From a virus: a DNA stretch of 44,923 bases. The notes beneath the pieces are model-generated. The model did not search any database, was not told where the DNA came from, and saw only the letters and a program-made list of their open reading frames with translations. The stretch covers positions 1 to 44,923 of the IMG/VR virus record IMGVR_UViG_3300032265_001669; one strand, 5' to 3'. Every line of letters starts with the position of its first letter. Positions within the stretch are counted from its first letter, which is position 1. Positions 2,263 to 38,413 of the stretch are shown in pieces. A program made the position numbers and the translations under genes.

Positions 2263-3459
2263 TTACTGAACTTTTAGAAGAATAGTTTCTTCGTTTAGAC
2301 GTCCGTTTAGCTTAGTATCTGTAGCGTTAATATCGTCTAAGAACTTACGCAACTGCACCTTGCCTGCGGTTTTGAACTCTTTGAGCTTTTCCTCGGGCTT
2401 ACGAACGGTCTTTTGAACGCTCTTAAACTCGTCAAAGTTAGTAATCGTAGTACCTTTAACACCCAGCGTGTTGAACTCGGTGGCAACATACCTGCCAAGT
2501 TTACGTGTCTTAGTGTTAAAAATCCACAACTCACCAGCACCAATAATATCAACCGGATTGATACTTACAAGTTTTAAAGGCTCGTTAGTCTTCATAAACT
2601 TGAGTTTAGCAATCAGTTTCTCTTTTGGAACTGCCTTAGTTTTGCGTGGCGCACGATTAACTTTAGCTTCCTGGGCAAGCATATCGCAAGCCATCATAAT
2701 TTCTTGATAAAATGCAATCAAATTCTTAATTTGTTTCTTGCTACGATGGCTGTAGCCCTCACGTAGCTGTTCATCAGCCTTACCGGATGCCAACAGCTCC
2801 AGTTCAGCTAAGTCACTGCTGTAGAACCCTTTAATGATCCTTGCGTGAGCGGCCTTAACTTCTTTGCCTTTGAGCAAGTTAAGCATCTTAAATGCTTTTG
2901 GATCAAACGCCTCTGGATCTTTTTGGAAACCGTCGATAGCATCTTCAATTTCTTCAGTCATACGCATTGCGGCTTCGCGAACACGGTCTTGGATGCTGGG
3001 CTGTGCAACAGTGCTTTTAACTTCTATGACTTTTTCGTCATCCGCATCATTCTTGCCTTGTTCAATAATTTGAACAATTTCATTACGCAACCATGCGGCA
3101 GTGTCTCGACCCTTGTTAAAGTCTGCACGAACAGCTGGCATGCCACGGAGCAAACAACTTGCGATAGCACCCATTGTGACATTTACACGGTTGTCTTTGG
3201 TTTGCTTAAAAGCCGCGATGTCTTCTTTGGTACAGTTAACACTGGCCATCCATTTGAGAACAGCGGGTTTTAAATCCTTACCACCAAACTCCAAACGGTA
3301 GTAACTCATAGCACTATGCCAGTGGCGCAAAAATTGGTTAGCATCCATAGCTTCTACACCATCCCATGTTGGGCTGTAGTCTTTAGGGGCCTTGGTACGA
3401 TGTGCAATCACTTGCTTTTTGGTAACGCGGGTCTTTTTTGCTGGTGCTTTAGTAGCCAA
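2263..3459 (-). CDS. conserved-looking phage protein of unknown function
   Basis: 398 residues from the chosen TTG start. The N-terminus is lysine-rich (about residues 1-25), followed by a mixed helical body and a C-terminal part with a WIFNTKTRKLG motif. No catalytic motif is recognised; the basic start could bind nucleic acid or a virion partner. The open frame extends upstream to 3519, but that stretch is the promoter itself. The TTG at 3457-3459 has AGGAG six bases upstream and is the best-supported start. Confidence 0.7.
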   Translation of the reverse strand: MATKAPAKKTRVTKKQVIAHRTKAPKDYSPTWDGVEAMDANQFLRHWHSAMSYYRLEFGGKDLKPAVLKWMASVNCTKEDIAAFKQTKDNRVNVTMGAIASCLLRGMPAVRADFNKGRDTAAWLRNEIVQIIEQGKNDADDEKVIEVKSTVAQPSIQDRVREAAMRMTEEIEDAIDGFQKDPEAFDPKAFKMLNLLKGKEVKAAHARIIKGFYSSDLAELELLASGKADEQLREGYSHRSKKQIKNLIAFYQEIMMACDMLAQEAKVNRAPRKTKAVPKEKLIAKLKFMKTNEPLKLVSINPVDIIGAGELWIFNTKTRKLGRYVATEFNTLGVKGTTITNFDEFKSVQKTVRKPEEKLKEFKTAGKVQLRKFLDDINATDTKLNGRLNEETILLKVQ

Positions 3460-3490
3460 TTTCTGCTCCTGTTTGTTTAACAATGTAAGT

Positions 3491-3519
3491 ATTATAGCAT
3501 CAAGTATAGAACTTGTCAA
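3491..3519 (-). promoter_or_regulatory. consensus sigma-70 promoter
   Basis: TTGACA (3514-3519) and TATAAT (3491-3496) on the minus strand are separated by exactly 17 bases, a perfect consensus. It lies between the glycosyltransferase-like gene and the unknown 398-residue gene. It overlaps an apparent in-frame extension of the latter, which argues against the longer start. Confidence 0.85.
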
Positions 3520-3528
3520 CTATCAAAT

Positions 3529-4380
3529 TTATACTCCGTTTAACATTTTCCATTTTTTAATATCCAAATCGTCAATAATATCTTTGTCTTTGAGCAATTG
3601 ATGATTGATATCTACTAGTGTAGGGTTGTTTTTCATACGACGATGAAATGACCAAAATGGCATAGTTTTATAAAATGGCAGTACATTTTCTTCAGTATGA
3701 AAATCGATTAATTCACCGTTACTATTTCTTTCTTCAAATATACCCTCACCCATATCCATATGGACCCATTTGATAAGGTCTTGGGCAAACCACCAATAAG
3801 CGTTAAATTCCCAAGCAGGCAAATCGTATTCGGTATTATAAATGTCGTGACCTCGTTTAGCATATTCGTTTATTGTAAGTTTAACCAAATCTTTACGCCA
3901 TACCCACGGAGTCAATGTCCAACCTTCTATTTTTTCATAAGGATCGCTACCAAAATATTCGCAACACATTTTCCAACAGTCCATGGGCTCCCTATCGATA
4001 TTGGGTCCTACTCTAAATATTCTTACTTTTTGTGCCCCATCGACAAAGAACCAACTACCGTCAATTGGATTGATTAAGAAATTCTTTGCATCTAATATAA
4101 GGGAATACTCAGATTGACTAACTTCAGATGCCGCCCAGAGTTTTAAGATTTGCTGGCGCCACCATCCTGATTTGGTTGGAGTTACTAATGTGTCTGTGAT
4201 AATAACATTCCACCCTTTCATTATTTCTAGAATGTTATCAATTACAAACTGTTTGCTATCGTTTCCATCCTCTGGCACAATAATCCATTCTTTTGCCCCC
4301 TGCCAGTTCTTTGCTAAACTTTTGGCTTGATACAATAAGTTACCGTAGTCTTCCTTATAAAAAACTGTAATAATATTCAT
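3529..4380 (-). CDS. glycosyltransferase-like protein, paralogue 1
   Basis: 283 residues, strongly similar in pattern to the neighbouring 279-residue protein. An N-terminal ITVFYKEDYGNLLYQA-type strand-helix, a GWWRQQILKLWAA helix (about residues 72-84) and an SLILDAKNFLI strand recall GT-A-like families such as DUF6492, in which a DxD motif binds the nucleotide sugar and metal. Here the motif reads D-A-K-N, so metal use is doubtful. Last gene of the leftward cluster with the radical SAM proteins. No clear ribosome site precedes the ATG. Substrate unknown; family assignment is from motif pattern only. Confidence 0.6.
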   Translation of the reverse strand: MNIITVFYKEDYGNLLYQAKSLAKNWQGAKEWIIVPEDGNDSKQFVIDNILEIMKGWNVIITDTLVTPTKSGWWRQQILKLWAASEVSQSEYSLILDAKNFLINPIDGSWFFVDGAQKVRIFRVGPNIDREPMDCWKMCCEYFGSDPYEKIEGWTLTPWVWRKDLVKLTINEYAKRGHDIYNTEYDLPAWEFNAYWWFAQDLIKWVHMDMGEGIFEERNSNGELIDFHTEENVLPFYKTMPFWSFHRRMKNNPTLVDINHQLLKDKDIIDDLDIKKWKMLNGV

Positions 4381-4405: not shown

Positions 4406-5245
4406 TTATTTTGGACATAGCATTTTCCATTCATCTATCAAAGATTCATCAATTATACCAAGCCTAGATAAAAAATCGTTATGAAATTTAGAACATGTTT
4501 CGTGATTGGCCATCAGTCTATGAAAAGACCAAAAAGGATGCGCTTCGAATCCCGGCCTTACTCTAGACAAAGAATAATTACAATCTCCTGAATTAACACC
4601 GTCATAATAAAATATTCCCTCCCCAAAGTGTTCAGTATCTTCCCATTCAATCAAATCTTGTGCAAAGAACCAGTAAGCATTAAATTCCCATGCTGGTAAA
4701 AATTCTTCATTATAAATATCGCAACTTTGTTTTTTATATTCTTCTATAGTTAACTGAACTATATCTTTCCTCCAAACCCAAGGAGTTTTAACCCAAGCAA
4801 GTAATTTTCTATCAAAATCGCCTTTAAAAAAATTACAACACTCTTTATAATTATTTTGATTAACTCCCCATTCTTTTTGCCATATTCTTACTTTAGTTTT
4901 TCCATCTACAAAAAACCAATCGTCACTTATAGGATTTATTAAAATATTTTTTGAATCTAAAATAAGAGAATATTGGTCTTGATTGATTTCGCTAGCTGCC
5001 CAAAATTTACAGATTTGCTGTCTCCACCAACCTATTTTAGAAGACATAGGTGGAGCCTTGACTAAAATAACATTCCACTCATCCATAACTGGTATAATTC
5101 TGTTTAATACAAAACTATATGTACTGTCGTTATCTTCTGCAACTATAATCCATTCCTTTTTTCCAAGCCAATTCTTTTTTAAACTGTATGCTTGATATAA
5201 TAAATTATGTAGGTCGTTTTTCCATGTAACAGTTATTAGATTCAT
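4406..5245 (-). CDS. glycosyltransferase-like protein, paralogue 2
   Basis: 279 residues. It shares the same block order as its downstream paralogue: N-terminal ITVTWKNDLHNLLYQAYS, GWWRQQICKFWAA, SLILDSKNILINPI, a TPWVWRKDIV block, and a C-terminal HPFWSFHRLM block. The DxD-like site reads D-S-K-N. Its ATG overlaps the stop of the upstream radical SAM gene (ATGA), so the two are probably translated together. A tandem duplication is the simplest origin. It could transfer a sugar to a product of the radical SAM enzymes or to a virion protein; this is inference. Confidence 0.6.
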   Translation of the reverse strand: MNLITVTWKNDLHNLLYQAYSLKKNWLGKKEWIIVAEDNDSTYSFVLNRIIPVMDEWNVILVKAPPMSSKIGWWRQQICKFWAASEINQDQYSLILDSKNILINPISDDWFFVDGKTKVRIWQKEWGVNQNNYKECCNFFKGDFDRKLLAWVKTPWVWRKDIVQLTIEEYKKQSCDIYNEEFLPAWEFNAYWFFAQDLIEWEDTEHFGEGIFYYDGVNSGDCNYSLSRVRPGFEAHPFWSFHRLMANHETCSKFHNDFLSRLGIIDESLIDEWKMLCPK

Positions 5246-6459
5246 TTTAACGATGTTTTACCTTCGTGTGTATATATTCTGTCTATAGAACTATTTTGTC
5301 CGCAAGTGTCTGCACAAAATAATAACTTTCCATCTTTGATGGATTCTTTCGTCCAACTATTGGTAAACACCTTATCTAAGTGTCTTTCGTTGATGATATT
5401 TTCAAAAGAATTATAATTAAGATTAAATTTTTCTAACCCATATTTTTTTACTTCGTGGTGCAACTGCAATGTCTTATCGTCCGCATAATTGCCGTTTAAA
5501 TGTGTGCCTACATAACAACAAGGTAATACATTTCCGTAGTTGTCAATAAAAATATCTACAATACCTTGCCTTAAACTTTTGCACTGTATGTTGCAAGAAT
5601 TTTCTTTTTGATAAGTGTTAACATTTAATGTTTCGTAAATTTTTGTATATCTTTGTTGGTGATATCGTTGTATTAGTTTTTCTTCTTTTTGTTTTTTATA
5701 ATCTTCTACAGAAAATAAGTTGGCTGAAACACTACCAATTTTCTCATATTTTTCTAAGTTTCGATTTTTAGGATTTGTCGGAGCTTCGATTATATAATCT
5801 AATGTTCCTTCTTTAGTCAACGCACCCATGGCATGTAAATTGACACCGTTATCAACTCCCAAAGCCTTCTTAGGTACAAACCTAGCAAATCCTAATTCTT
5901 CTGCTAGTTGTCTAGCTTGATCGATTTGATGTTCGTTATGTTTAAAAATAAGAAAATCCCAATGAGCTCTGCCACCTGCCGCAATAAAGGCTTTTACATT
6001 AGCCATTAGTTTATCCCATTTGACATTTCTACGATATAAATGATTTGTATCTTCCAGTCCGTCTATACTAAATGTAACCCAATTGCTTGGATTATCTTTT
6101 AGTGTTGAACCTAAGTTACTCCACCATTCTGGATTACGCATACCACCATTAGTGTTAAACAATATATTTGTTTTAGGACTATTTTCAATAATATATTTGG
6201 TAATTTCTAATGTATCCTGAGCAATACACGGATCGCCATGTACTCCGCAAAATAAAATTAATAATTGTTTTTTTAAAATTTCTGGGCTAAACCAAGATTT
6301 AAATTGATCAAGCGATATTTCTCCTAACTCTAAATCTGGCCTTAACAATGGACTGCTTTGATGAAACCTCATACACATTGGGCAAGCGGCATTACATCTA
6401 TTAGTCAGTTCAATATGTAAGTGATTAACTAATTCATAATCAAATGATGTTGGAATCAA
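5242..6459 (-). CDS. radical SAM protein with SPASM-like C-terminus
   Basis: 405 residues. The CX3CX2C cluster motif is C22, C26, C29 (CNAACPMC), binding the 4Fe-4S cluster that cleaves S-adenosylmethionine. The C-terminal third carries several cysteines (a C-x3-C near residue 280, LPCCYVG, and C-x3-C near the end) that fit a SPASM-type auxiliary cluster domain, as in peptide-modifying radical SAM enzymes. The start is TTG with GGAG six bases upstream, overlapping the preceding gene by 20 bases. It is the only one of the five radical SAM proteins here with the motif at the very N-terminus. Substrate unknown. Confidence 0.8.
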   Translation of the reverse strand: MIPTSFDYELVNHLHIELTNRCNAACPMCMRFHQSSPLLRPDLELGEISLDQFKSWFSPEILKKQLLILFCGVHGDPCIAQDTLEITKYIIENSPKTNILFNTNGGMRNPEWWSNLGSTLKDNPSNWVTFSIDGLEDTNHLYRRNVKWDKLMANVKAFIAAGGRAHWDFLIFKHNEHQIDQARQLAEELGFARFVPKKALGVDNGVNLHAMGALTKEGTLDYIIEAPTNPKNRNLEKYEKIGSVSANLFSVEDYKKQKEEKLIQRYHQQRYTKIYETLNVNTYQKENSCNIQCKSLRQGIVDIFIDNYGNVLPCCYVGTHLNGNYADDKTLQLHHEVKKYGLEKFNLNYNSFENIINERHLDKVFTNSWTKESIKDGKLLFCADTCGQNSSIDRIYTHEGKTSLK

Positions 6460-7648
6460 AATATGCTCCGTATTCTTTAAATGTATTTTTGAAATTTTGA
6501 TTGCGATAATTATCGCTTGTACTAGTAACTTTCAAAAATTTTCTAAATGCTTCTTCATTGCTAGTATTAGTATTCATAAAATTAATAACACCAGGAATAT
6601 GATCCCATGCTTGTACACGATCTTTTGGCACAGATAATAGTCGTTCCTCAACAGCGTTTTTAATATGCTCAGGCAATATTCCAATATTATGATGTATAGG
6701 CCCGTGTACTAGGTTAAGGTACATGCCAACATTTTTATTGGCATACTTGTTGTAATAATAATCAAGTGTTTCAGGCACATTGTAGATATTTGCTACACTA
6801 AGAGTTATACACCAGCTAAAATGTATGTTGCCAAACTCACGACCGAGTTCCAAGAATTTTTCTATGTTAGCGTCTACTTCCGGCCACTTAGCCGGGTAAC
6901 GCATATATTCAAATTGATCTCCTATTCCGTCGATACTAAAACTAACATTAACTTCTTTGAAGTCTTTCCAAGATTGCATTTCCTCTAGAGGAAAATGTGT
7001 ACCGTTAGTATTATAATGCAAATCGATATTTTTAGATAATCCGGTAGACTGTGCAATCTTTAATAGTTCCCACATCTTCTTACTCATAAAAGGTTCGCCA
7101 CCGTAAAAGTCAAATTGTCTTATATCCGGTAATATAGTTTTAAGTTCTGCCCAAAATTTACTATCTTCATCGTATGACTGATGGAACTTTTTAAATTTAA
7201 CTGCAAATTCTTTATAAGTTACATCATTGGTTTCAGTTTCGTATGCTTCTTTCATCCACCCTGAACTGATATAAGGGTTACAAGTACGACAACTAATATT
7301 GCAAGTATTGCCTAAGTTTAATTCTAAATAGGCTAAATTTTTGTAAGGATCTGGCCTGCGAGCATGTTTTTCGTTATCTCGCATACGCTTACTTTTGCGA
7401 CCGGCGCTTTCTTCATTCCAACAATAATTGCACCTACTATTTCGTATGCCGGCATCTAGATCTTCACGTACAATTTGAAATACCTTATTATTAAAATGTT
7501 CGTCAAGGGTTTCCTCACCTAATACTAATCTAGGATCAGTATGATCTGCGTTGTACATACAACATAATTTTGTAGTACCATCATTATTTCCACTCATTCC
7601 GTGGAAGGCATTGACACACCATGAATGTTTATTCTTTTCGTTGAGCAT
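6440..7648 (-). CDS. radical SAM protein with N-terminal cysteine block
   Basis: 402 residues. The radical SAM motif CNISCRTC is internal (C116, C120, C123), followed by a YGGEPF motif that contacts the SAM amine. Ahead of it lies a separate cysteine block (C11, C29, C30, C73, C76, the last two in a C-x-YCW motif), reminiscent of a SPASM/twitch auxiliary cluster domain placed before rather than after the barrel. Same architecture as the two upstream neighbours. It overlaps the upstream gene by 20 bases with no obvious ribosome site, suggesting coupling. Substrate unknown. Confidence 0.8.
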   Translation of the reverse strand: MLNEKNKHSWCVNAFHGMSGNNDGTTKLCCMYNADHTDPRLVLGEETLDEHFNNKVFQIVREDLDAGIRNSRCNYCWNEESAGRKSKRMRDNEKHARRPDPYKNLAYLELNLGNTCNISCRTCNPYISSGWMKEAYETETNDVTYKEFAVKFKKFHQSYDEDSKFWAELKTILPDIRQFDFYGGEPFMSKKMWELLKIAQSTGLSKNIDLHYNTNGTHFPLEEMQSWKDFKEVNVSFSIDGIGDQFEYMRYPAKWPEVDANIEKFLELGREFGNIHFSWCITLSVANIYNVPETLDYYYNKYANKNVGMYLNLVHGPIHHNIGILPEHIKNAVEERLLSVPKDRVQAWDHIPGVINFMNTNTSNEEAFRKFLKVTSTSDNYRNQNFKNTFKEYGAYFDSNII

Positions 7649-9005
7649 CGTTTGTAAAATATTCTAGTTCTGGAAATGCGGCATTAAAATCTGTATTACG
7701 TCTACGATCATGTTCCTTAACAAAGGCCGCAAAATCTCTACGATTGATTGCGAGTTCTTCTCCGCGATAACGATTGTGTTCGATCCAACGAACAACACGT
7801 TCAAGTTTAGAATATTCTGTTGAGTTAAACATTAACGGATCGCTGTTTTTTACCAGTGTACCCATGTATTTAAGTGTATCATTTAAATGAGCAATCATCT
7901 TATCGTCTGCAATTAAACTAGACAAATGCGGTGGCTCAATAAGATATGGTGTATCGAACCGTATGCGATCGGGGTATCGTTGTCGCATTTCTAAAATCTT
8001 ATCTAACAATAATTTAAAATTAGGAATACTTAAAAAGCAAAATGTAATCATGATGCCAATTCTTGTTCCAGGAACTTCTGTAAGATACAAGTCAATATTG
8101 CTTTCCCACTTAGACATTGTAAATCCATTGCGGATCCATTCTGCTTGAGGCCCCCATGTATCTACACTTGTGAATAAGCTCAACTGACCTATTTTGTTTT
8201 CTGCTTTTAAATTTTTGCAAGCATCTACAAACTTGTTAAGGTTACGTTCTGGAATACACATATTGCTATTGATAGCAAATTCTAAATCGTTGCGTGGATT
8301 ATCGTTGATCCACTCTAACACTTTAAACACATTACTACTCAATAACGGCTCTCCACCAGTTACCCTTAGTGTGTGAAGTTTAGGATAGGCACTTGGAAAC
8401 CATTTCCAAAATGCTTCGATGTATGGGTTATCATCTTCTTTTTGAAAAAATCTTCCAACTTGTGATATTTGGTGTATATTATACTGTCTACGATTTATTT
8501 CGTTTTCTAATGGATAGTCGCCGTGTTTTTTAATTTCTTTATGCCACGCACTGCTAATAGAAGAAGCACAGTAACTACATTTAAGCTGACATTCGTATCC
8601 AAAATTAATTTCTAAATAGCGAGGAACAACATCGGCCTGCCAATCTATTTTGCTAGTTTCATCTAATAATGGAGTTGCCCAGGGTTCGCTTGAACGTAAT
8701 TGTCGGTCGCTAATATGCTCTCCGGGCAAGTCTTCGATATCCCAACAGTAACTACACTCCGATGGCCGACCACCCTCGAGCATAGTTTTACGTTGTTCTT
8801 TCTTCCACTCACTGTTATGTAGTGCGCTAGGATTTTTAGTAATTTCTTCTAAAGATACTCTGTGCGGCATAGGATGATAGCAACTGTGGTTTGTGCCTGT
8901 GTGCAAATGCATACTTACATGATACCATTTTGCTAAACAAAATCCAGGACCAGTTTTATCCAGTGTTACTTTAATTTCTTTAAGTTTTGTGTTATAGTCT
9001 GTCAT
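7629..9005 (-). CDS. radical SAM protein, twitch-type, paralogue
   Basis: 458 residues. The core motif is C139, C143, C146 (CQLKCSYC), with RVTGGEPLL downstream. The N-terminal block FCLAKW (about 22-27), HSCYHPMPH (40-48) and C-SYCW (about 84-88) matches its upstream neighbour nearly residue for residue, so the pair arose by duplication. The ATG overlaps the preceding stop in an ATGA junction. The C-terminal motif NRRDFAAFVKEHDRRR is also shared with the neighbour. Probably a peptide- or small-molecule-modifying enzyme; the target is unknown. Confidence 0.8.
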   Translation of the reverse strand: MTDYNTKLKEIKVTLDKTGPGFCLAKWYHVSMHLHTGTNHSCYHPMPHRVSLEEITKNPSALHNSEWKKEQRKTMLEGGRPSECSYCWDIEDLPGEHISDRQLRSSEPWATPLLDETSKIDWQADVVPRYLEINFGYECQLKCSYCASSISSAWHKEIKKHGDYPLENEINRRQYNIHQISQVGRFFQKEDDNPYIEAFWKWFPSAYPKLHTLRVTGGEPLLSSNVFKVLEWINDNPRNDLEFAINSNMCIPERNLNKFVDACKNLKAENKIGQLSLFTSVDTWGPQAEWIRNGFTMSKWESNIDLYLTEVPGTRIGIMITFCFLSIPNFKLLLDKILEMRQRYPDRIRFDTPYLIEPPHLSSLIADDKMIAHLNDTLKYMGTLVKNSDPLMFNSTEYSKLERVVRWIEHNRYRGEELAINRRDFAAFVKEHDRRRNTDFNAAFPELEYFTNDAQRKE

Positions 9006-10417
9006 AATGTTTTACAGTAGTTATAAAATTCTGCCATCTCCGGGAATGTTTTTAGGAATTCTGTTTGACGCCTACGATCGTGTTCATCAACAAATACAGC
9101 AAAGTCTTTTTGATCTGTTTTATTTGTAGTCCTATTATCAAACACACTTAGGATTCTACTCATTCTGTTTACTTCGTAGTCATAAAACCCACGGCCGCAC
9201 AGTTCTGGTACATAGGTTTGTTGTAAGTTATCCTGCATAAACTTGATTTGTTCTTCAATCATAGTTCTATATTCATCCGGGAGTATTTCAATAGTTTGAT
9301 GTGTGGGCCAACGCAAGTAAGGAATGTCTATACCAATAGGGTGACGATCCACTTCATTAGTATACTTTAATCTAAATTCTAGCATGTCCTCTAAAAACTC
9401 TTTAAAGCTGGTAATACTTAGTGCATTATATGTACTCATTACTGTAATTTTACATCTAGGAACATTTTGCATTAGTCGATTACAGTTATCGAGCCATTGA
9501 TTATAGTCTAAACCATATCTAATGTATTCAGCACGACCACCCTTGGCTTCGCAACTTGTGTAAATCTTTACTTCTTTAACAGCACCTGCCTCTTGTATCT
9601 GTTTAAGTACGTTCATAAAATCCACAAATAATTTGTCAGGTACACACAAGTTACTGTTTATGTTTAAGTCTAAATCAGGACGAGGATTCTTTAAAATAAA
9701 ATCTAATAGTCTGAATGTGTGTTTAGTAAGTAATGGCTCTCCTCCTGTAACACGCAGTATTTTTAGATTTGGATACAAGTCTGGCCACCAAGACCAAAAT
9801 GCTTCAACATAAGGATTTACATCGCGTTCTAAGTAAGGCAACCGATCGTTATCCTTAAGCCAAGTTATGTCATGTAGGTTTTTACTAGTTGGATACGCAC
9901 CGTGTTCCTTTATTTCTTCCATCCATTTACTACTAACTTCAGGAGTACAATAACTACATTTAAAATTACAAACACTTGAGAAGCTTAGTTCTAAATAACT
10001 AGGGTCGTGTGTAGTTTGCGGATTGGCAACAATGTCATCAATATAAGGTCTTGCCCACTTGTCTACACTTTTCATTATACGATCACTAAACACTTGACCT
10101 GTAGGATCGCTATCCTCAACCTTCCAGCAATAATCGCACTCGTTTGGGCGTTTGCCTTCTAGCATTAATTGTTGTTGTTGTAGTTTGAATGAAGTGTTGT
10201 GTAATGCACTACTCGCTATCTTAATTTCTTCTATAGGAATATGATGAGGTGTTGGATGGTGGCAACTATGTGTTCTACCATTATGCAGATGTACAGTTAC
10301 TTGTTTCCATTTGGCTACACAAAAACTTGGACTAATAGCGTTAAGTTTATCTCTAAACGCTATTAGTTGTTGTCGTCTTTCTGCGTCTGTTCCAAAATCA
10401 TTCACAATTAAGTCCAA
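9002..10417 (-). CDS. radical SAM protein, twitch-type, paralogue
   Basis: 471 residues. The core motif is C150, C154, C157 (CNFKCSYC), with RVTGGEPLL following. The N-terminal block has FCVAKW (32-37), SCHHPTPH (51-58) and C-DYCW (94-98). The C-terminus FAVFVDEHDRRR parallels its downstream paralogue. First of four consecutive radical SAM genes. The called start is TTG at 10417; a GTG four codons later at 10405 is equally possible because neither has a strong ribosome site. It overlaps the stop of the preceding unknown gene. Confidence 0.8.
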   Translation of the reverse strand: MDLIVNDFGTDAERRQQLIAFRDKLNAISPSFCVAKWKQVTVHLHNGRTHSCHHPTPHHIPIEEIKIASSALHNTSFKLQQQQLMLEGKRPNECDYCWKVEDSDPTGQVFSDRIMKSVDKWARPYIDDIVANPQTTHDPSYLELSFSSVCNFKCSYCTPEVSSKWMEEIKEHGAYPTSKNLHDITWLKDNDRLPYLERDVNPYVEAFWSWWPDLYPNLKILRVTGGEPLLTKHTFRLLDFILKNPRPDLDLNINSNLCVPDKLFVDFMNVLKQIQEAGAVKEVKIYTSCEAKGGRAEYIRYGLDYNQWLDNCNRLMQNVPRCKITVMSTYNALSITSFKEFLEDMLEFRLKYTNEVDRHPIGIDIPYLRWPTHQTIEILPDEYRTMIEEQIKFMQDNLQQTYVPELCGRGFYDYEVNRMSRILSVFDNRTTNKTDQKDFAVFVDEHDRRRQTEFLKTFPEMAEFYNYCKTL

Positions 10418-11244
10418 AGACTTTGTCTAATTTTGATAAGACGAATCATCATGGCTTCTTCTTCTTTTTCGTAGTCCGCCTCGATCTTACGAAGTAGCTT
10501 GTGCGCCTTGTCGCTGGCTTTTTTAATCACTGGATCTTTATCTCCGCTGAAACTTAGTCGACCGCCGTTTGCCAAACGACTGGCTTCGCAGGCCGCAGTC
10601 CAACCACTTGCATCATAAGCATCTGGACGATTGCGATATGTTTGAGTCCACCAAGTATAAAGCTCAATAATTTCCTTAGCGGCTTTGGCTTGATAAGTTG
10701 GCTCACCGTAACCTTTTTCGCCAGGAGTAGCACCCATGTCTTCGCTGACAACAAGTTCACTAGCCCATTTGAGATATTCAAGGCCGGCTTCTGGACAACG
10801 CCATGTACGCCAACGCAACCAACCGCTACGATACCATGGAACCTCAAACTTAGTCTTAGCTTCATCACTCCATATGCAGTGATGCCATGCTTGCTCTATT
10901 TCAACAAAGTCCACAAGCTCATTGAACATGCAAGGAAGAAAGCGATTACCAACGTCACTCCAATTACCTGGTTTGATGTCTCGAGGATGGGCTGTAAGAG
11001 CATGGCTGTTGCTAACCCAGCGATTATTAATATAATAACGTACATCATTTAATTTATCCGGTATGTAGTAAACAAATTTTTGAAGGTAGTCTAAACCTTC
11101 TTCGGCAATCCACCAACGAACGGGATATGCGGCTTTGGCCTTGTCTTCCCAGTCGTTCCATTCCTCACTGGTGCCGCACTTGAGCTTTGGCGTACCGCGT
11201 AGCCAGTCTGCAAATTTACCAATTGTCCAATAATGACTTCTCAT
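10408..11244 (-). CDS. phage protein of unknown function, tryptophan-rich
   Basis: 278 residues with many tryptophans, including WKYRS-like and WRTWRCPEAGLEYLKWA segments, and a charged helical C-terminus (about residues 235-275) likely to form a coiled coil. No signal peptide or catalytic motif. It follows the 43-residue small gene by two bases and overlaps the first radical SAM gene, so it lies in the same long leftward transcript. Function not recognised. Confidence 0.65.
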   Translation of the reverse strand: MRSHYWTIGKFADWLRGTPKLKCGTSEEWNDWEDKAKAAYPVRWWIAEEGLDYLQKFVYYIPDKLNDVRYYINNRWVSNSHALTAHPRDIKPGNWSDVGNRFLPCMFNELVDFVEIEQAWHHCIWSDEAKTKFEVPWYRSGWLRWRTWRCPEAGLEYLKWASELVVSEDMGATPGEKGYGEPTYQAKAAKEIIELYTWWTQTYRNRPDAYDASGWTAACEASRLANGGRLSFSGDKDPVIKKASDKAHKLLRKIEADYEKEEEAMMIRLIKIRQSLWT

Positions 11245-11246: not shown

Positions 11247-11378
11247 TTATACCTTATCTATTCCGTACATACTTTCGTATGGTGTTTTGTAAATCGAATA
11301 ATACACCGCTTCTTGTAGAGTGGGGAAGAACCGCACCCGCAATATTCCCCCAGTATCCCACCAACGTAGTTTATACAT
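11247..11378 (-). CDS. small protein, 43 residues, unknown
   Basis: A 43-residue reading frame (starts MYKLRWWDTGG, ends YGIDKV). Its ATG overlaps the TAA of the BI-1-like gene (TAATG), and its stop lies two bases before the next start, so it fills the gap exactly. That fit and a non-random composition (RVRFFPTLQEAVYYSIYKTPYE) support a real gene. Function unknown. Confidence 0.55.
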   Translation of the reverse strand: MYKLRWWDTGGILRVRFFPTLQEAVYYSIYKTPYESMYGIDKV

Positions 11379-12073
11379 TACTTTCTATCGCCAAACAACT
11401 GCAACAAGTTGATAAACAAGTTGATAAAGTCCATGTACAATGTTAATGCACCGCGAACTTCTGCGGCTGGTGTAGTATCCATACTGAGTTCTTCACGGAT
11501 CTGTTGTGTGTCGTATGCTGTCAATCCTAAGAAGATGATAATTGCCAATGCCGAGATAACCATGGCCATTACACTGGACCCAATAAAAATGTTTACAATG
11601 CTGGCAATAACAATAGCAATCAATCCAATGAACATAAATTGTCCAAGACTTTCTAAACTACGTTTGGTAAAGTAGCCGTACCCACTCATGACTCCAAATA
11701 AGATTGCCGCACCCATAAATGCACTTACAATACTACCCATAGTGAATACAGCAAAGATTGTAGCAAAGCTCAATCCCATCAGCGCCGCAAAACCATGCAA
11801 ACACAGTTGAGCAACTGGTTTACTAGGGTCATTGCCTAGTACCATAGCAACACCAAATATTGCCGCAAGTGGAGCAAAAATCACAATCCACTTTAATACA
11901 CCTGTAAAAAAGAATTGTAACAACTCTGGACTAGTACCTACAAAGTAGCTTACTAGCATGGATACAATAACCGCCAAACTCATGTGGCCATACACACGAC
12001 CCATTGCACTGTTAATTTCTTCTGCTGAGCGATAATTTAAAATACTGCCAGCTGTATAATTTGCACCAAACAT
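11378..12073 (-). CDS. BI-1 / YccA family membrane protein
   Basis: 231 residues with about seven hydrophobic segments, the usual size and topology of the Bax-inhibitor-1/YccA family. The LTAYDTQQI motif late in the protein and a C-terminal LYMDFINLFINLLQLFGDRK tail with conserved acidic residues are family hallmarks. Bacterial members such as YccA inhibit the membrane protease FtsH. In a phage, such a protein could shield newly made proteins or alter host membrane proteostasis; that role is inferred. A strong AAAGGAG site precedes the ATG. It is followed by the overlapping 43-residue gene. Confidence 0.88.
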   Translation of the reverse strand: MFGANYTAGSILNYRSAEEINSAMGRVYGHMSLAVIVSMLVSYFVGTSPELLQFFFTGVLKWIVIFAPLAAIFGVAMVLGNDPSKPVAQLCLHGFAALMGLSFATIFAVFTMGSIVSAFMGAAILFGVMSGYGYFTKRSLESLGQFMFIGLIAIVIASIVNIFIGSSVMAMVISALAIIIFLGLTAYDTQQIREELSMDTTPAAEVRGALTLYMDFINLFINLLQLFGDRK

Positions 12074-23815: not shown

Positions 23816-24427
23816 ATGTACACAATAATAGAAGATTGTAGCCCATATTATATAAGATTCAAATGGGAAGGATTGCAAGATGTTATAAGTTCTATATCTC
23901 AACAACCTTTAGAAAACGAAGAAAAATATCCCGGTTATCAGAACCAATGGTTGACTAAAAAAGCGGCTATAAAAATAAATGACATGTTACCTTTTAAAGA
24001 TTTAAGATTACGATTATCTAGATTTTGTATTTTTGATACATACCCAGACGGCGGAATGGGTATACATACGGACGGGGTAACCAATGAAGACGGAATCAAC
24101 ACTCAATCAGTTGGTATCAACATAGCACTAGAAATATCAGACGATAAATGTATAACGTATTGGTATGATGACGAACAGTTTAAAGACTGGCCAGCCAATA
24201 TTAGTAGATGGAGTAAAAATATATTAAAAGATTGGCGCAAAGCGGCAACTTATCCCAATGTAAAAACAACAAATGTACGCCCAGGTGAAGCAATCCTTCT
24301 GAATACTTCTATCTATCATAGTGTTTGGAATAAAGATTCGCCCAACAGAAGAATACTGTTGACGCTTAGACCTAGAGTCAACACCATTCCGTTTGCCGAG
24401 ATTAAAAAAATAATGTTTGGTTTGTAA
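23816..24427 (+). CDS. Fe(II)/2-oxoglutarate oxygenase-like protein
   Basis: 203 residues. The metal site is H84-T-D86 in MGIHTDG, with the distal His at H168 (SIYHSVWN) and the 2-oxoglutarate-anchoring Arg near R178/R179, the normal order of the double-stranded beta-helix. First gene of the enzyme island, read rightward. Such enzymes hydroxylate peptides, nucleobases, sugars or lipids; the substrate here is unknown. AGGAAA sits near the ATG. Confidence 0.72.
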   Translation: MYTIIEDCSPYYIRFKWEGLQDVISSISQQPLENEEKYPGYQNQWLTKKAAIKINDMLPFKDLRLRLSRFCIFDTYPDGGMGIHTDGVTNEDGINTQSVGINIALEISDDKCITYWYDDEQFKDWPANISRWSKNILKDWRKAATYPNVKTTNVRPGEAILLNTSIYHSVWNKDSPNRRILLTLRPRVNTIPFAEIKKIMFGL

Positions 24428-24450
24428 AATCTTAGACAAAGGAAAACAAC

Positions 24451-25185
24451 ATGCAACTAATTAATAATCAAATATTTTATAATCTAGAAAACCATTTAGA
24501 TATGAAAGCATTTGACGAGATAAACGATAAAATTGCACTTGCGTTGGCAAAAAATTATGCACATTGTCGACCATCAGGTACTGGTCAAGCTACACTATAT
24601 GATCAATCTACCGTGAGTGTATTTAAAGAACGGGATCGAATCTTGTTAGAAATGCCTGAGCTAAGCCGCATAGAGGCTGAGTATTATGCTAAATTATCTG
24701 GAGCATCTACTCTTGGAACTCGTCTTATTGTACGAGGAGTTTTGGGTGATCAAGCAAAATATCATGAGAAGCATCTAAAAAGAAATGTAATAAAATATCC
24801 GTTTGACGACCAATTTAAGTTTTTATTTGATTGGATAGATGCGCAGAATTGTTTTACTGAGTACTGTAGAGTAATTTTTTGGATCAACGAGTCTTGTCAA
24901 AAAACAGCTTTTCACCGAGATTACGCTGAAAATAATGCTAGATATAAAGATGTCAAAGATCAATTTATTTGGTTGACCGGAGTAATTCCAAAGAGACTAG
25001 TTGTCAATGATTCCGATACCGGCAAACTACATCTTTCAACTTGTAGAGCGTGTGTTTTTAGTACGCACAATATTCATTCAAGTGAAGGTCATCCTCAATA
25101 TGCCGCTTGGAGTCTTCGGATAGATGGTAAATTTAATAAAGAATGGGCAGAAAAAGCAGGTATTTCTGAGTACTTTAATCTTTAA
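24451..25185 (+). CDS. Fe(II)/2-oxoglutarate oxygenase-like protein
   Basis: 244 residues. H155-R-D157 (AFHRDYAE) is the proximal site, with distal H206 or H209 (STHNIHSS) and R223 (SLRID). The extra N-terminal 140 residues are helical. AspH-like (aspartyl/asparaginyl hydroxylase) enzymes share this HRD-type spacing. AAAGGAAA site upstream. It ends 22 bases before the convergent leftward oxygenase, with no terminator hairpin between. Confidence 0.7.
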   Translation: MQLINNQIFYNLENHLDMKAFDEINDKIALALAKNYAHCRPSGTGQATLYDQSTVSVFKERDRILLEMPELSRIEAEYYAKLSGASTLGTRLIVRGVLGDQAKYHEKHLKRNVIKYPFDDQFKFLFDWIDAQNCFTEYCRVIFWINESCQKTAFHRDYAENNARYKDVKDQFIWLTGVIPKRLVVNDSDTGKLHLSTCRACVFSTHNIHSSEGHPQYAAWSLRIDGKFNKEWAEKAGISEYFNL

Positions 25186-25207
25186 ATTATAGGTACACTT
25201 GGCTAGT

Positions 25208-26065
25208 TTAATTTTCTATATCCAACGTTAATCCTTCAAAAACATCACCATCGGCTAGCATATCAAATGGGTGTTTAACTCCGTAGAATTCGTTTTTTAA
25301 CCAATACTGCTCTTCAGGGTTATAATTCCACCAAGGACTAAGTCCCAATACAAGGTGTATTCTTCTAAAATTATCTGTTTTAACTTTATAAACTTTATGT
25401 AGATCGTGTGTATCCCAACTATAAGCCCACCCTACAGGCAAATTAACAGGGGGATAATCCTCTATTTCCATTAAGTAATTATCATTAGTAGTCAATGGAA
25501 TATTAATCCTTGTATTGATAAACACGGGCTCATCTCGGTGCCATCCTTGGGAGGCATTAACTTTGCCGTTTATCACAGATATTCTACTTCTTATACGGGT
25601 TAGTTTGCAACGAGACATTAACTCTCCGATACTTTTGTGGTTACTTGCCGGCGTCGGAACATTGAATCCATAGCTATCAAAATACCCGTTGCGTAATACT
25701 TGGTGAGTTTCTAACGAACCGAATACAAATTCTTCTTTTTTATTTTTAGGAGTTCCTAATGTACTAGCATGAATATTCAATTTGTCTTGGTGATTTGGAT
25801 TATACACTAAACTGATTCCAGTATATAAACTACTTTCGCCTGTGGCGTGCCGCCATCCGTATTCACCGTAAATTTCTGAAGCTTCGTTGTAATCCTTAGT
25901 TAGTTGATCAGCATCAAAATTAGAAATTTTAAAATTTAATATTTTTGGATAGACAATTCTGGGTTTGATTTTGGCCATCTGATCTGACCAATCGGTATTT
26001 TGTAATAACCAATTAACTATAGTCATATCCTCAGGACAATCTTTAACATAATATTTTTTTTGCAT
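25208..26065 (-). CDS. Fe(II)/2-oxoglutarate oxygenase-like protein
   Basis: 285 residues from the ATG at 26065, one base past the previous stop; an upstream extension of 24 codons is the overlapped neighbour. H176-R-D178 (GWHRDEPVF), distal H220 or H223 (WDTHDLHKVY) and R234/R235 (RRIHLVLG) give a full site resembling aspartyl/asparaginyl beta-hydroxylases. Last gene of the leftward island operon. Substrate unknown. Confidence 0.72.
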   Translation of the reverse strand: MQKKYYVKDCPEDMTIVNWLLQNTDWSDQMAKIKPRIVYPKILNFKISNFDADQLTKDYNEASEIYGEYGWRHATGESSLYTGISLVYNPNHQDKLNIHASTLGTPKNKKEEFVFGSLETHQVLRNGYFDSYGFNVPTPASNHKSIGELMSRCKLTRIRSRISVINGKVNASQGWHRDEPVFINTRINIPLTTNDNYLMEIEDYPPVNLPVGWAYSWDTHDLHKVYKVKTDNFRRIHLVLGLSPWWNYNPEEQYWLKNEFYGVKHPFDMLADGDVFEGLTLDIEN

Positions 26066-26066
26066 A

Positions 26067-26363
26067 TTAAATAGTCGATACTTCTTTATCGACCTCGATA
26101 CCGTGACTAACATTATATATAAGTCGTTCATTAGCAATTTTATTATTTGAACTTTCTTTTAGAAAATTTGCGTAATTTTCTTCGTTGTCAAACATAATTA
26201 TTTGTTCTTTTACAGTAGTCGTTAAATTTTCATCTGTAAAACTAACAAAACCCTTACATGTTTTGACCCAGTTGATATACTCTTTATGTTTTTCTGGTTC
26301 ATGTTCTGCAAAAAACTGAGAATTATCAGGTTTACTTATAATCATTGATAAACAAATTGTCAT
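26067..26363 (-). CDS. small protein, unknown
   Basis: 98 residues, soluble, acidic, with a FDNEENYANFLKESSN segment recalling small alpha/beta ABM-like folds. Strong AAGGAGA site. It lies between the DUF2061-like gene and an oxygenase in the leftward operon. Function unknown. Confidence 0.55.
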   Translation of the reverse strand: MTICLSMIISKPDNSQFFAEHEPEKHKEYINWVKTCKGFVSFTDENLTTTVKEQIIMFDNEENYANFLKESSNNKIANERLIYNVSHGIEVDKEVSTI

Positions 26364-26373
26364 AAATGTCTCC

Positions 26374-26637
26374 TTAGACTGTATTTAGTGTGTTACTACT
26401 ATTAACAATTTCTTTCCCCCAGCCAGCACGATTCCACGCTCTTTCATGAAAATAGTACATTATGCTGTTTACTACTAGTGCAAAACTAACTACACCTAAT
26501 CCAACCCAAGGATTACCACTTGCTAGCCAACCTCCTAGAAAATTAGTAATAGTAACTAATATTCGCCAAGTAATCACTTTAGCCGCACTACGCGGTATCT
26601 TTTCTTGGAATCGTTCTTTAATTGTTGTTGAATCCAT
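26374..26637 (-). CDS. DUF2061-like membrane protein
   Basis: 87 residues. RSAAKVITWRILVTITNFLGGWLASGNPW ... VVNSIMYYFHERAWNR matches the DUF2061 pattern: K-x-I-T-W-R-x-L near the start, two membrane spans, then Y-Y-x-H-E-R-x-W. Members occur near sulphate-assimilation and other loci without known activity. It overlaps the PP-loop gene by 20 bases, with AGGAAAAA upstream. Membrane location suggests the pathway acts at the inner membrane. Confidence 0.78.
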   Translation of the reverse strand: MDSTTIKERFQEKIPRSAAKVITWRILVTITNFLGGWLASGNPWVGLGVVSFALVVNSIMYYFHERAWNRAGWGKEIVNSSNTLNTV

Positions 26638-27799
26638 TTTTCATTTTTCCTATAATATATTTTTGTTTAAAATCAAGTAGTGAGTCAGGGATACCCCACG
26701 TAGTCATATTGACATATTTTGGAATATTTTTTCTTAGAAAAAATAATCCATTTCTCCAATTTTCACGTTCTTTTTCAAACTGTTGTAGTCTCTTGAACCA
26801 TCCATCAAATTCTGTATTCCACCATTGTATTGACTTATCTGCTTGATACCAAGAATTATCCCATGTAGAGTATAACAAACTACGTAACCACCTTTCGTGA
26901 TATAAACGTCTCATTTGGGTTCCAGTATTTCTCCAATACCCCTGTCTATCTGGACGGTCTAATTCTAACCACCGTTTTATTACGTGTGCTTGTTTGCAAA
27001 CCATGTCAACAGAGTCAGGGCTCCAATAAAACAATTCTGTTGTTACATTACTGTACTCTTTATTAAAGTCGTTGATCGTTGTTATATTAGCAGTAGTATC
27101 ATTAAAAAATATATAAAAGTTTCCATTGTTATCAATCTGAGTCTTTGGTTTATCAACTCCTACAATTATACATGCGCTTTTTCCTTGGTCAAATTTCTTT
27201 TTAATTTCCCCAAAGTGAAAATAATTGTAACGGAATAGTTGCCCTGGTGATATATGATCATTTCGATGCAATACCCAATCTTCTTCACTAAAATCCTTCA
27301 TAGCATCTACAACGCTGTTACTGACATCTAGCACCGTAATTTTAGTTCTAGGTAGTTTATCAGTTATGTATTGTAATCTAGGCACAGCTTGAAGTTGATG
27401 CTCGGCAGCAAAGTTCCAACTATCTTTAAAATCGGAGTCTATTAGTGTGTATGATTTAGTAAGCTCGGTCATGTGATTAGTCACAATTTCATCTATGTGT
27501 AGACCTTGCCTGATAAAACTTTCTAATATATTATTAGTGTCAGCACCACCGCTAAAACTCAGCACAACGTAATCGTACTTTTCCCTCAATTGTCGACTAC
27601 GTCGATCGTATAGTTGGTCAAGAGATTCAGTAGGCTCAACTTGCCAATTATAGTTGTCAAACTCTAATCGATTAAAATACCATTCTACAGGTTTATTAGA
27701 TCTAGTACTGTGAAACAACGCATCAATTTTAGATGAAAATTCTATACCATCACAAAGATAGTATCCTAAATGTTTATTTGTCATATTATTTTCTAACAT
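26618..27799 (-). CDS. PP-loop ATP pyrophosphatase-like protein (asparagine-synthase-like)
   Basis: 393 residues from an ATG whose A overlaps the previous stop (TAATG). PP-loop S83-G-G-A-D87 in VVLSFSGGADTNNIL binds ATP for substrate adenylation. There is no N-terminal glutaminase domain. The C-terminal half is W/Y-rich and helical. This class activates a carboxylate or carbonyl for attack by an amine or thiol. It is next to another PP-loop gene, so the two may act on the same pathway. Exact family unresolved. Confidence 0.7.
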   Translation of the reverse strand: MLENNMTNKHLGYYLCDGIEFSSKIDALFHSTRSNKPVEWYFNRLEFDNYNWQVEPTESLDQLYDRRSRQLREKYDYVVLSFSGGADTNNILESFIRQGLHIDEIVTNHMTELTKSYTLIDSDFKDSWNFAAEHQLQAVPRLQYITDKLPRTKITVLDVSNSVVDAMKDFSEEDWVLHRNDHISPGQLFRYNYFHFGEIKKKFDQGKSACIIVGVDKPKTQIDNNGNFYIFFNDTTANITTINDFNKEYSNVTTELFYWSPDSVDMVCKQAHVIKRWLELDRPDRQGYWRNTGTQMRRLYHERWLRSLLYSTWDNSWYQADKSIQWWNTEFDGWFKRLQQFEKERENWRNGLFFLRKNIPKYVNMTTWGIPDSLLDFKQKYIIGKMKNGFNNN

Positions 27800-28713
27800 T
27801 AAAATATCCAATCTTTAAATTCTTTAATAGATCCCGAGCAAGATTCTAAATGTTGCACTACATCATTGTAATTTACACTGATGTGTGCTTCTTTAGGATA
27901 TGCCCAATGCGGAATCATCCAATTGGGATAATTTTCATAACCTGATTTTTTAGAAGGCCACAGGATGTCTCTTTTAAAGTATTTTCCTTTTAATAATCCT
28001 TTTAGATAATAATTAAATCTACTGCCCGGAACCATAGGCTGTTGAGTGCCCGCTACTACCAAATCGTTTGTAATATAATAATTACACACATCACCCCAAA
28101 TTTTAATTAGATCGTCGCAATAGTAAGAAGCGAGGCTTTCTGCACTATACGGAAAGTCTAAAATAGTTCGATGTTTATTAATTAAATTAAAACGTAAACG
28201 CAGACTTTCATGATAGTTGTGATATATGTGTAAACCAATTATTCGATTTCCTATGATTGCAGGTTCGTTTGCACCGCTCATAATCATGGGATAATTTTCT
28301 GGCAACATTTTGCTGGCAAGTTCAAAAGGGTAATGAACTAAAGTTGGTAAATTTTCAGAAATTGATCTTGCTTCCCACTCTTCGCGATGTTCTTCAAGTT
28401 GTACTTCTAAAATTTTAATTTTAATTCCGTAAAATTTTTCAGAAAGTTCCACTACTGTTTTTTCAAAATCATTACGTCCTTTTACATGAATGAAAAACGG
28501 TTCAAAATCTACCTTCATATCTAAAAAGCATCGAAGTATTACTTGGCTATCTACACCCGAACTAAACGCTACGTATACCTTACCGTATTTTTCATTAATA
28601 AGTTTTGTATCAGCATTAAGTTCTTCACGCAGATTTCCAAACTTTCGACTTGGACTTTGATATCTTACAACATATTCTTGTTTGTCGATTTCGTATGTTA
28701 TTGGATTGTCCAT
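27799..28713 (-). CDS. PP-loop ATP pyrophosphatase-like protein
   Basis: 304 residues. PP-loop S51-S-G-V-D55-S56 in VYVAFSSGVDSQVILRCF. A second block MSGANEPAII (about 150) may close the nucleotide site. Architecture parallels the 311-residue protein at 30.1 kb: N-terminal lead of 45-65 residues, PP-loop, then helical tail. Probably an ATP-dependent amide, thio or ammonia-transfer enzyme; no partner glutaminase is seen. Confidence 0.7.
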   Translation of the reverse strand: MDNPITYEIDKQEYVVRYQSPSRKFGNLREELNADTKLINEKYGKVYVAFSSGVDSQVILRCFLDMKVDFEPFFIHVKGRNDFEKTVVELSEKFYGIKIKILEVQLEEHREEWEARSISENLPTLVHYPFELASKMLPENYPMIMSGANEPAIIGNRIIGLHIYHNYHESLRLRFNLINKHRTILDFPYSAESLASYYCDDLIKIWGDVCNYYITNDLVVAGTQQPMVPGSRFNYYLKGLLKGKYFKRDILWPSKKSGYENYPNWMIPHWAYPKEAHISVNYNDVVQHLESCSGSIKEFKDWIF

Positions 28714-28714
28714 T

Positions 28715-29179: not shown

Positions 29180-29227
29180 AATGTTTCTCCGTGACATATT
29201 TAGCAGGCAGTTTTTTAGGATAAAAAT

Positions 29228-29806: not shown

Positions 29807-29813
29807 GGTGATA

Positions 29814-29827
29814 TATTTACGTAAATA
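29814..29827. promoter_or_regulatory. palindromic bidirectional late-type promoter candidate
   Basis: Perfect 14-base palindrome TATTTACGTAAATA in the divergent gap. Each strand reads CGTAAATA, which keeps the TAAATA core of late promoters. It could fire both ways, or be an operator. Confidence 0.4.
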
Positions 29828-29865
29828 CGTTGCGCACATACTAACACGTGGCAGGAGACATAACA

Positions 29866-32995: not shown

Positions 32996-32997
32996 TC

Positions 32998-37087: not shown

Positions 37088-38413
37088 ATGTTTTGTAAAA
37101 CTGTTTGGAGCGGGTTGCATATTTTACCTGACGGATACATTAGATTATGTTCTATTGGGCAAAATTCTAATAAAAAATTAGACATGCAACGTGCCAGAGA
37201 TAAAGATGGCAAGGTAATGCATATACTAACCCATAGTATCTATCAAATAATGAATAGTGATAAACACAAAGAAGTTAGATTATTCAATGTTAATAATCCT
37301 GATAAATGGAGTCCGCATTGCGACTGTTGTGAGAATCGAGAGATAATAACAAATCATGATAGAAACCATAAAAATAAAAGTCGTAGAATATATTTGCTGA
37401 AAATAGAAGATGATAATGTTGTGTCAGAAGAAGACTATCAGCAAAACAAAATAGATAGTGAGGGTAATATAGATTGGATGCCAAGCTCGTTGGATATAAG
37501 ATTTGGCAATTTGTGTAATCAAAAATGCATTATGTGTAGCCCTGCGTTTAGCAATTTATGGTACGAAGAACATTTTGATTACTTTAAAACTAATTCGTTT
37601 GGGCAAGGAACTAAAATTACAGTTACCAAAAACACAGATACTGGTAAATGGATGGAGCCTGCTGAACTTCAATGGTATGAAGATCCTAGATGGTGGCCAA
37701 AGTTTGAAGAAATGATGCCGCATTTAAAACATATCTATATCACAGGCGGCGAACCAATGGTTACTCCAGCTCATGATATCATGCTTGATAAACTAATCGA
37801 AGCTGGTTACGCAAAAAATATATGGATAGAATACGATACAAATGCCAGTGCTATCAATAATAAAATAGCACAACGATGGAGTCATTTTAAGAAAGTAGAT
37901 ATTCGTGCTAGTATGGATGCAATTGGCAATCAATATGAATTGATAAGATTTGGTGGTAAATGGGAAAAATTTCAAAACAATATTAAAACTTTGAAACAGT
38001 ATGAAAAAGATTCTGGTGGTATAGTGAATTTATTATCAGTTAGTACATGTTTTCAAATTCCCACAGTGTACAGCATTATTGAAAGCGAAGAATGGTGCAA
38101 GAGTGTTGGGGTTAATTTTCATTTAAGATTTTTAGAAGGGCCTGCTCGATTATCAGTATCTTCATTATCTGACAAATCAAAACAAGAGTTGCTGGACTAT
38201 TATATAGAAAATCGAGATAAAGCAGATAAAGCACCAATGATTATAACATATTTAAAAAATCACATGGGTGATAAATTTTATAAACCCGATGAAGTAGTAG
38301 AGTTTATAAAATTTATGAATTATCTCGATGGCACAAGAAAAACTGATTGGAAATTAACTTTCCCCCAAGTATCACAAATGATAGAGAAAAATGAAATACA
38401 GAAAGCTGGGTAA
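37088..38413 (+). CDS. radical SAM protein with N-terminal cysteine block
   Basis: 441 residues. Internal motif C143-x3-C147-x2-C150 (CNQKCIMC), ITGGEPM downstream. N-terminal block has C3, C21, C78, C80, C81, like the proteins at 6.4-10.4 kb but with longer spacing. So this island enzyme is related in architecture to the distant cluster. Strong AAAAGGAAAA site. It overlaps the next oxygenase by 23 bases. Confidence 0.8.
   Translation: MFCKTVWSGLHILPDGYIRLCSIGQNSNKKLDMQRARDKDGKVMHILTHSIYQIMNSDKHKEVRLFNVNNPDKWSPHCDCCENREIITNHDRNHKNKSRRIYLLKIEDDNVVSEEDYQQNKIDSEGNIDWMPSSLDIRFGNLCNQKCIMCSPAFSNLWYEEHFDYFKTNSFGQGTKITVTKNTDTGKWMEPAELQWYEDPRWWPKFEEMMPHLKHIYITGGEPMVTPAHDIMLDKLIEAGYAKNIWIEYDTNASAINNKIAQRWSHFKKVDIRASMDAIGNQYELIRFGGKWEKFQNNIKTLKQYEKDSGGIVNLLSVSTCFQIPTVYSIIESEEWCKSVGVNFHLRFLEGPARLSVSSLSDKSKQELLDYYIENRDKADKAPMIITYLKNHMGDKFYKPDEVVEFIKFMNYLDGTRKTDWKLTFPQVSQMIEKNEIQKAG

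Follow-up and report, generated by a model that had tools for sequence, protein, structure and literature searches.

N-terminal-twitch radical SAM enzymes in a viral genome, their transferase-like and fibre-like neighbours, and their possible substrates

What would a virus do with four radical S-adenosylmethionine (SAM) genes in a row? The question is raised by IMG/VR virus record IMGVR_UViG_3300032265_001669, analysed here over its full 44,923 bases (the window). The genes, rA to rD, occupy positions 5242-10417 of the minus strand, neighbours overlapping by 4-20 bases, and a fifth, rE, lies on the plus strand. An original prediction, made from the DNA letters, had reported four tandem radical SAM genes, three of them with an N-terminal cysteine block, and a fifth such gene at 37.1 kb, all of which is confirmed by open reading frames (ORFs) and motifs. 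What is firm is that the enzymes belong to a known family and that their context is unusually constant. The tentative part, to which we give a probability of about 40%, is that these radical enzymes modify fibre-type surface proteins, possibly glycosylated ones.

Family membership and the front domain

9002..10417, minus strand: rA, N-terminal-twitch radical SAM protein (NF033640), 471 amino acids (aa); profile match, cysteine motifs
7629..9005, minus strand: rB, N-terminal-twitch radical SAM protein, 458 aa; NF033640, homology to rA, tree
6440..7648, minus strand: rC, N-terminal-twitch radical SAM protein, 402 aa; NF033640
5242..6459, minus strand: rD, radical SAM protein whose SPASM-like block has the usual C-terminal place, 405 aa; Pfam, motifs
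37088..38413, plus strand: rE, fifth N-terminal-twitch radical SAM protein, 441 aa; NF033640
10097..10333, minus strand: N-terminal twitch block of rA (C33, C52, C94, C97); motifs, hhalign
8715..8951, minus strand: N-terminal twitch block of rB; motifs, hhalign
7391..7630, minus strand: N-terminal SPASM/twitch block of rC; PF13186 at 16.2 bits (below cut-off), hhalign
37088..37360, plus strand: N-terminal SPASM/twitch block of rE; PF13186 at 28.6 bits
5245..5592, minus strand: C-terminal SPASM-like block of rD; hhalign 79% to the N-terminal blocks

Each of the five proteins contains one CxxxCxxC core motif, which places them in the radical SAM superfamily. A C-x(9-15)-G-x4-C stretch and a CxxC lie ahead of this core in rA (cysteines 33/52/94/97, then 150/154/157), rB (23/42/84/87, then 139/143/146), rC (11/29/73/76, then 116/120/123) and rE (3/21/78/81, then 143/147/150), whereas in rD the core comes first (22/26/29) and a C-G-C pattern follows it (289/293/314/315/382/386). 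Against the general radical SAM profile PF04055 (cut-off 29.5 bits), rC, rD and rE pass, and rA (26.6) and rB (21.4) fall short. Whole-profile matches to NCBIfam NF033640 (N_Twi_rSAM; curated cut-off 170 bits) reach 342.5 bits for rA, 299.1 for rB, 315.9 for rC and 265.2 for rE, so far above the cut-off that the N-terminal motif order exceeds chance. By these scores the four proteins are assigned to a named family, and the N-terminal order, which the original prediction had presented as a departure from the usual one, is not new; the name N_Twi seems, on our own reading of it, to say the same as a front-placed twitch domain. rD aligns with this profile only over positions 110-268, the core region, and at 55.1 bits does not reach the cut-off. 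Viperin-like antiviral defence was considered separately and rejected (NF038283: rA 22.7, rB 18.9, rC 25 bits; cut-off 180).

The N-terminal cysteines are conserved. In an alignment of 54 proteins selected from the rA, rB, rC and rE types, with the rD type left out, C33, G47, C52, C94, C97, C150, C154 and C157 are invariant in all 54. Among 129 radical SAM proteins of at least 330 aa from loci chosen independently through a neighbouring gene family (F1, below), 124 keep the N-terminal pattern and all 129 the core.

The nature of the front block was approached through profile comparisons. The isolated rE block matches the SPASM profile PF13186 with 28.6 bits (cut-off 21.5), and the isolated rC block covers the whole profile with 16.2 bits, below that cut-off; the isolated rA and rB blocks have no SPASM match in Pfam. 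Profile-profile alignment links the rA/rB blocks to the rC and SPASM-positive blocks (hhalign probability 97.7%, E 2.3e-12) and the N-terminal blocks to the C-terminal block of rD (79%), and a profile of rC-type blocks scores ten rA/rB-type blocks at 25.4-39.7 bits (maximum for shuffled sequences, 9.6). Therefore, judging from sequence comparison, the block is a SPASM/twitch domain moved to the front. The same assignment in the original prediction thus holds directly for rE, by PF13186, and for rA and rB only by way of the 97.7% hhalign link.

rA and rB, the two longest genes of the array, had been described as clear duplicates. They are indeed homologous (38% identity across 459 positions), yet a 154-row tree, built by a quick method with only the Shimodaira-Hasegawa-like approximate likelihood ratio test as support and with a long-branch warning on rE and several further rows, places rA in a clade of 41 rows (37 from phages, 4 others), rB in a clade of 12 (9 from phages, 3 others) and rC in a third place. 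The separate clades rule out a recent tandem duplication, and rA and rB are, by this tree, old paralogues. Both clades also include bacterial rows; gene exchange between phages and Bdellovibrionota, in either direction, is likely.

An AlphaFold2 model of rA (31 sequences; mean predicted local distance difference test score, pLDDT, 91.4) has as its nearest solved folds SkfB (Z 14.2, root-mean-square deviation (rmsd) 3.5, 228 aligned), BlsE and DesII (both Z 13.7) and anSME (13.3), with viperin and MoaA also among the nearest; SuiB was matched by Foldseek with E 1.3e-4. Of these enzymes, SkfB, anSME and SuiB act on peptides or proteins, and BlsE and DesII on sugars. Near-full-length matches to the rA model also occur among the viral proteins of BFVD (TM-score by target 0.88 for A0A6J7WHA2 and 0.74 for Q6WHP4).

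Phage loci: transferase-like and fibre-like neighbours

Relatives of rA were found in 70 viral loci and relatives of rC in 5; after removal of near-copies, 54 sources, the window included, were clustered, of which 49 had a usable first N_Twi gene. In 41 of these 49 the gene listed immediately upstream belongs to the GT-A-like family F1, and in 37 both F1 and the GT8-like family F2 occur among the last four upstream genes. The order is two F2 genes, one F1 gene and then the N_Twi genes, often two or three in a row. The association was also read in reverse, from 80 loci picked by F1 alone; these are the best 80 of 597 relatives, so the sample is biased to close ones. An N_Twi protein above 150 bits was present in 76 and F2 in all 80. 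Where the full 4-kb flank was available (n=66), 65 loci have N_Twi, 47 at least two copies and 27 at least three, and none has one upstream. Of the four loci lacking N_Twi, three (L278, L286, L296) break off about 1 kb or less from F1; in L287 the gene is truly missing.

F2 shows a resemblance to glycogenin, a GT8 enzyme (E 1.9e-4). A model of F1 (pLDDT 89.9) resembles GT-A enzymes, with Foldseek matches to the PBCV-1 capsid glycosyltransferase (4.1e-4) and SunS (1.2e-3) and VIA Z scores up to 9.6 (rmsd 3.0, 142 aligned); a sequence search of the PDB with F1 gave only weak matches, to repeat or designed chains. Fibre-like genes lie upstream of the F2-F2-F1-N_Twi module. An upstream protein of family F5 in L074 matches the autoproteolytic chaperone Peptidase_G2 above cut-off (1.4e-6); the F5 protein of L045 and one of L017 match below it (1e-4 and 0.001), and four others (L017, L028, L008) have no match. 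S74 ends were found by profile in L055 and L288 of the phage loci, and a motif regular expression for S74 found none. No functional paper on the N_Twi family and no printed account of the phage module, or of the bacterial gene triad described below, was found in the open-access literature, so that this glycosyltransferase and fibre context seems to be unreported.

The window itself has fibre-like genes near both radical SAM sites, and the array is flanked as follows.

4406..5245, minus strand: gt1, DUF6492 protein, overlapping rD by 4 bases; Pfam above cut-off
3529..4380, minus strand: gt2, DUF6492 protein, 51% identical to gt1; Pfam above cut-off
2263..3519, minus strand: P2263, phrog_11903 protein, function unassigned; adjoins or lies near rA in L025 and L059
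746..2215, minus strand: tail-fibre-like protein downstream of the operon; phrog_6002 (virion structural), phrog_2617 (short tail fibre), phrog_23059 (tail fibre)
10408..11244, minus strand: protein without assigned function; lies upstream of rA with a 10-base overlap and is retained in L007, L025 and L059
38992..40509, minus strand: fibre-like protein close to rE, its N-terminal domain of the major tropism determinant type; PF18454 1.9e-10

Two downstream genes had been called glycosyltransferase-like. They exist, are 51% identical to each other and score above the DUF6492 cut-off; comparison of their profile, a shallow one of two sequences, with the glycosyltransferase-like phage families F1 and F2 gave no link. 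The order rA-rB-rC-rD recurs in L007, L027, L078 and L079. In L025 and L059, from the window's own lineage, the same neighbours flank one rA only, which in L059 has an SGNH-like gene at its side; rA is a conserved resident gene of this lineage, and rB-rC-rD-gt1-gt2 therefore looks like an insertion. No phage DNA nearly identical to window positions 1-24900 was matched in INPHARED, and close proteins of named phages came only from Vibrio phages K566/K567, VS1 and one marine virus, at 20-28%.

rE sits in a second cluster, with one gene between it and the tropism-determinant fibre-like gene. The surrounding region, 23816-38990, holds an acyl-carrier-like gene (PF00550, 0.0013) and a PP-loop-like gene (PF01507, 9e-4), both below cut-off, along with fatty acid desaturase, TauD, GNAT and Asp/Arg hydroxylase-like genes, and looks like a biosynthetic or decorating cassette. 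Elsewhere, 11378-12073 encodes a membrane protein, Bax-inhibitor-1/YccA-like by eye, which is kept in phages L014, L025, L058 and L059 and has a relative in bacterial L126.

Such arrays could also be mobile cassettes of generic auxiliary metabolism or a sink for Fe-S clusters, acting on varied, unrelated substrates with no shared fibre or glycan role. Some marine phages do hold many radical SAM genes, 12 in one T4-like genome (PMC5332604), and cassettes differ between close phages (PMC7029224); in L007, rB-rC-rD show 78-82% conservation and rA 59%. A near-invariant signature and a fixed position after F2-F2-F1 in many loci make this quite improbable.

Less probable still is a diffusible peptide of the ribosomally synthesized and post-translationally modified (RiPP) type whose precursor gene lies elsewhere, an idea that fits the appearance of SPASM-type enzymes and of RiPP maturases among the matched folds and the PqqD partner of the bacterial relatives. 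As the original prediction had it, no precursor lies between the genes, which overlap by 4-20 bases, and none was seen beside them. The free small ORFs near the operon are two, 11247-11378 (43 aa) and 11254-11364; the 43-aa ORF went unmatched in a search of 155 viral loci, and the window operon has no free conserved small ORF of the kind expected next to a RiPP maturase. In most loci, moreover, F1 and the first N_Twi gene are immediate neighbours.

The tight pairing with glycosyltransferase-like genes would equally suit enzymes that act on sugars and, with the transferases, build or alter a surface glycan, be it the host lipopolysaccharide O-chain (against co-infection) or a nucleotide sugar. 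Neighbours that look by eye like epimerase, carbamoyltransferase and SGNH-type genes agree with this, as do BlsE and DesII among the closest folds, and PMC7029224 argues for O-chain modification by phage glycosyltransferases. Set against it, rA occurs without glycosyltransferase genes in L025 and L059, and the PqqD partner and peptide-like S74 protein of the bacterial relatives point to a ribosomal substrate. We consider a sugar substrate somewhat unlikely.

Bacterial relatives and a possible fibre-protein substrate

One scan of genome contigs retained 80 loci. The strong bacterial loci (L081-L128) are mostly from Bdellovibrionota (Bdellovibrio, Bacteriovorax, Halobacteriovorax); among the few others, L088 has a gene order that matches the phage loci. 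N_Twi proteins exceed the family cut-off in 63 of 129 genomes of the class of L122, often in many copies. Some genomes, such as G003 in the class of G001 and also G012 and G013, have at least ten N_Twi matches, several of them in tandem.

Several bacterial copies, those of Bacteriovoracia-type genomes, adjoin a PqqD-like protein (PF05402, 4.8e-11) and an S74 protein of 140-170 aa (PF13884, 8.5e-16); a PqqD/RRE gene beside the enzyme was found only in the bacterial relatives. Across the 129 genomes, 26 encode a full-length small S74 protein, 30 a PqqD-like protein and 25 both (Fisher p 1e-20, ignoring kinship), and every one of the 26 has a strong N_Twi match. The 26 fetched stretches (L191-L216) contain PqqD in 22 cases and in 16 an rA-like protein that scores 250 bits or higher, two of these cut by the stretch end, plus one cut fragment (L199). 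All 26 small S74 proteins share a stretch ending in YLDVFAG or YIDVFAG, directly followed by SDxxFK in 25 and by the same motif with Cys for Ser in the remaining one; mean conservation is higher over the 26 columns up to FAG, at 0.82, than elsewhere, at 0.57. If the protein cleaved itself, a peptide of some 39-63 residues would be set free.

In L106, L109, L111, L122 and L126 the surroundings of the N_Twi, PqqD and S74 genes include pilin-type (N_methyl) proteins, some 500-800 aa long, whose glycine-rich repeats are fibre-like; the pilin label is given by PF07963 only (0.0005, below cut-off). A conserved GT4 gene set with a carbamoyltransferase-like gene (by eye) surrounds the N_Twi genes of L104, L107, L109, L111, L114 and L128, some of which also have ABC polysaccharide-export-like genes, again by eye.

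Fibre-like and glycosyltransferase-like neighbours, the bacterial PqqD and S74 proteins and the peptide-modifier folds point, circumstantially, to modification of fibre proteins. Each enzyme would hold a core [4Fe-4S] cluster that cleaves SAM and, in its front domain, an auxiliary cluster, as far as sequence can suggest. The substrate would be a segment, protein or peptide and perhaps glycosylated, within a fibre-type surface protein, and late in infection the enzymes and the glycosyltransferases would together decorate the fibres with which the phage binds its receptor.

Several observations weigh against fibre-protein modification. BlsE and DesII tie with SkfB, so the fold cannot tell a peptide from a sugar substrate. 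F1 and F2 are absent from L025 and L059, where rA is present, and near phage N_Twi genes neither PqqD (best E 0.69, in the window and the viral loci examined) nor a B10-like leader (in the loci examined) was found. Eleven of the 15 PqqD-adjacent enzymes fall within one all-bacterial clade outside the phage clade, so the step to a peptide substrate crosses paralogues. L081, L082 and L085, whose bacterial members come closest to the phage clade, have housekeeping genes as neighbours there, and no fibre gene is seen; the rA genes L082:6440-9395 and L085:7971-9368 lie between respiratory-chain (nuo) and ATP-synthase (atp) genes, named by eye, on Bdellovibrionota contigs that look chromosomal. Finally, 9 of the 26 S74-protein stretches hold neither an rA-like protein of 250 bits nor a fragment, partly because of short contigs.

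A more specific version of the fibre-protein proposal, unlikely as it stands, would make the N_Twi enzymes fibre-protein modifiers common to phages and predatory bacteria. In Bdellovibrionota the substrate would be the N-terminal peptide, about 40-60 residues, of the self-cleaving S74 chaperone (a leader-like FGGI.EFNLEEIE.EVLNDSVYLDVFAG, then SDxxxK), which PqqD would recognise and autoproteolysis would set free; in phages two GT8-like transferases and one GT-A-like transferase would replace PqqD, and the fibres would receive a radical modification and a sugar. If true, this peptide would be a new kind of RiPP precursor. The radical SAM genes of marine phages have repeatedly been listed as auxiliary metabolic genes without a substrate, and the fixed module of three glycosyltransferase genes and a radical SAM gene beside fibres offers a concrete, testable target. 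The bacterial triad (radical SAM enzyme, PqqD and self-cleaving S74 protein with its near-invariant YLDVFAG) offers a simpler route to the function of the family, in organisms that rely on phage-like fibres to recognise their prey.

Comparison with known systems

NF033640 (N_Twi_rSAM) is shared with the window through whole-profile matches of rA, rB, rC and rE; its entry attaches no function to the family, and the tandem array, rD and the glycosyltransferase and fibre context lie outside the definition shown. The SPASM/twitch enzymes SkfB, anSME and SuiB have the core fold and a related auxiliary-cluster domain in common with the window enzymes, whereas the phage enzymes put the auxiliary domain before the core and have no leader-binding PqqD gene nearby. 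The nearest viral folds, BFVD A0A6J7WHA2 and the KVP40 MoaA/nifB/pqqE family protein Q6WHP4, match over nearly the full length at 23% and 16% identity.

The host recognition cluster of pelagimyophages (PMC7029224) also combines fibres, glycosyltransferases and radical SAM cassettes in one variable region, and its authors favour O-chain modification for the glycosyltransferases; the available portion of that paper describes neither an N-terminal domain nor a fixed F2-F2-F1-radical SAM order. Neither there nor in the available portion of PMC5332604, the source of the T4-like environmental genome, is a substrate given for the radical SAM genes.

For the bacterial triad, the closest comparison is with the MAT fibres of Bdellovibrio bacteriovorus. 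In the fibre Bd3182, SDxxxK is the catalytic motif of S74, with self-cleavage at Ser (PMC10769870, whose main text does not mention a radical SAM enzyme). The small bacterial S74 protein has this motif in common with the MAT fibres in 25 of 26 cases, with Cys for Ser in the other, and differs in its size of about 140-170 aa and in carrying a peptide in place of a fibre.

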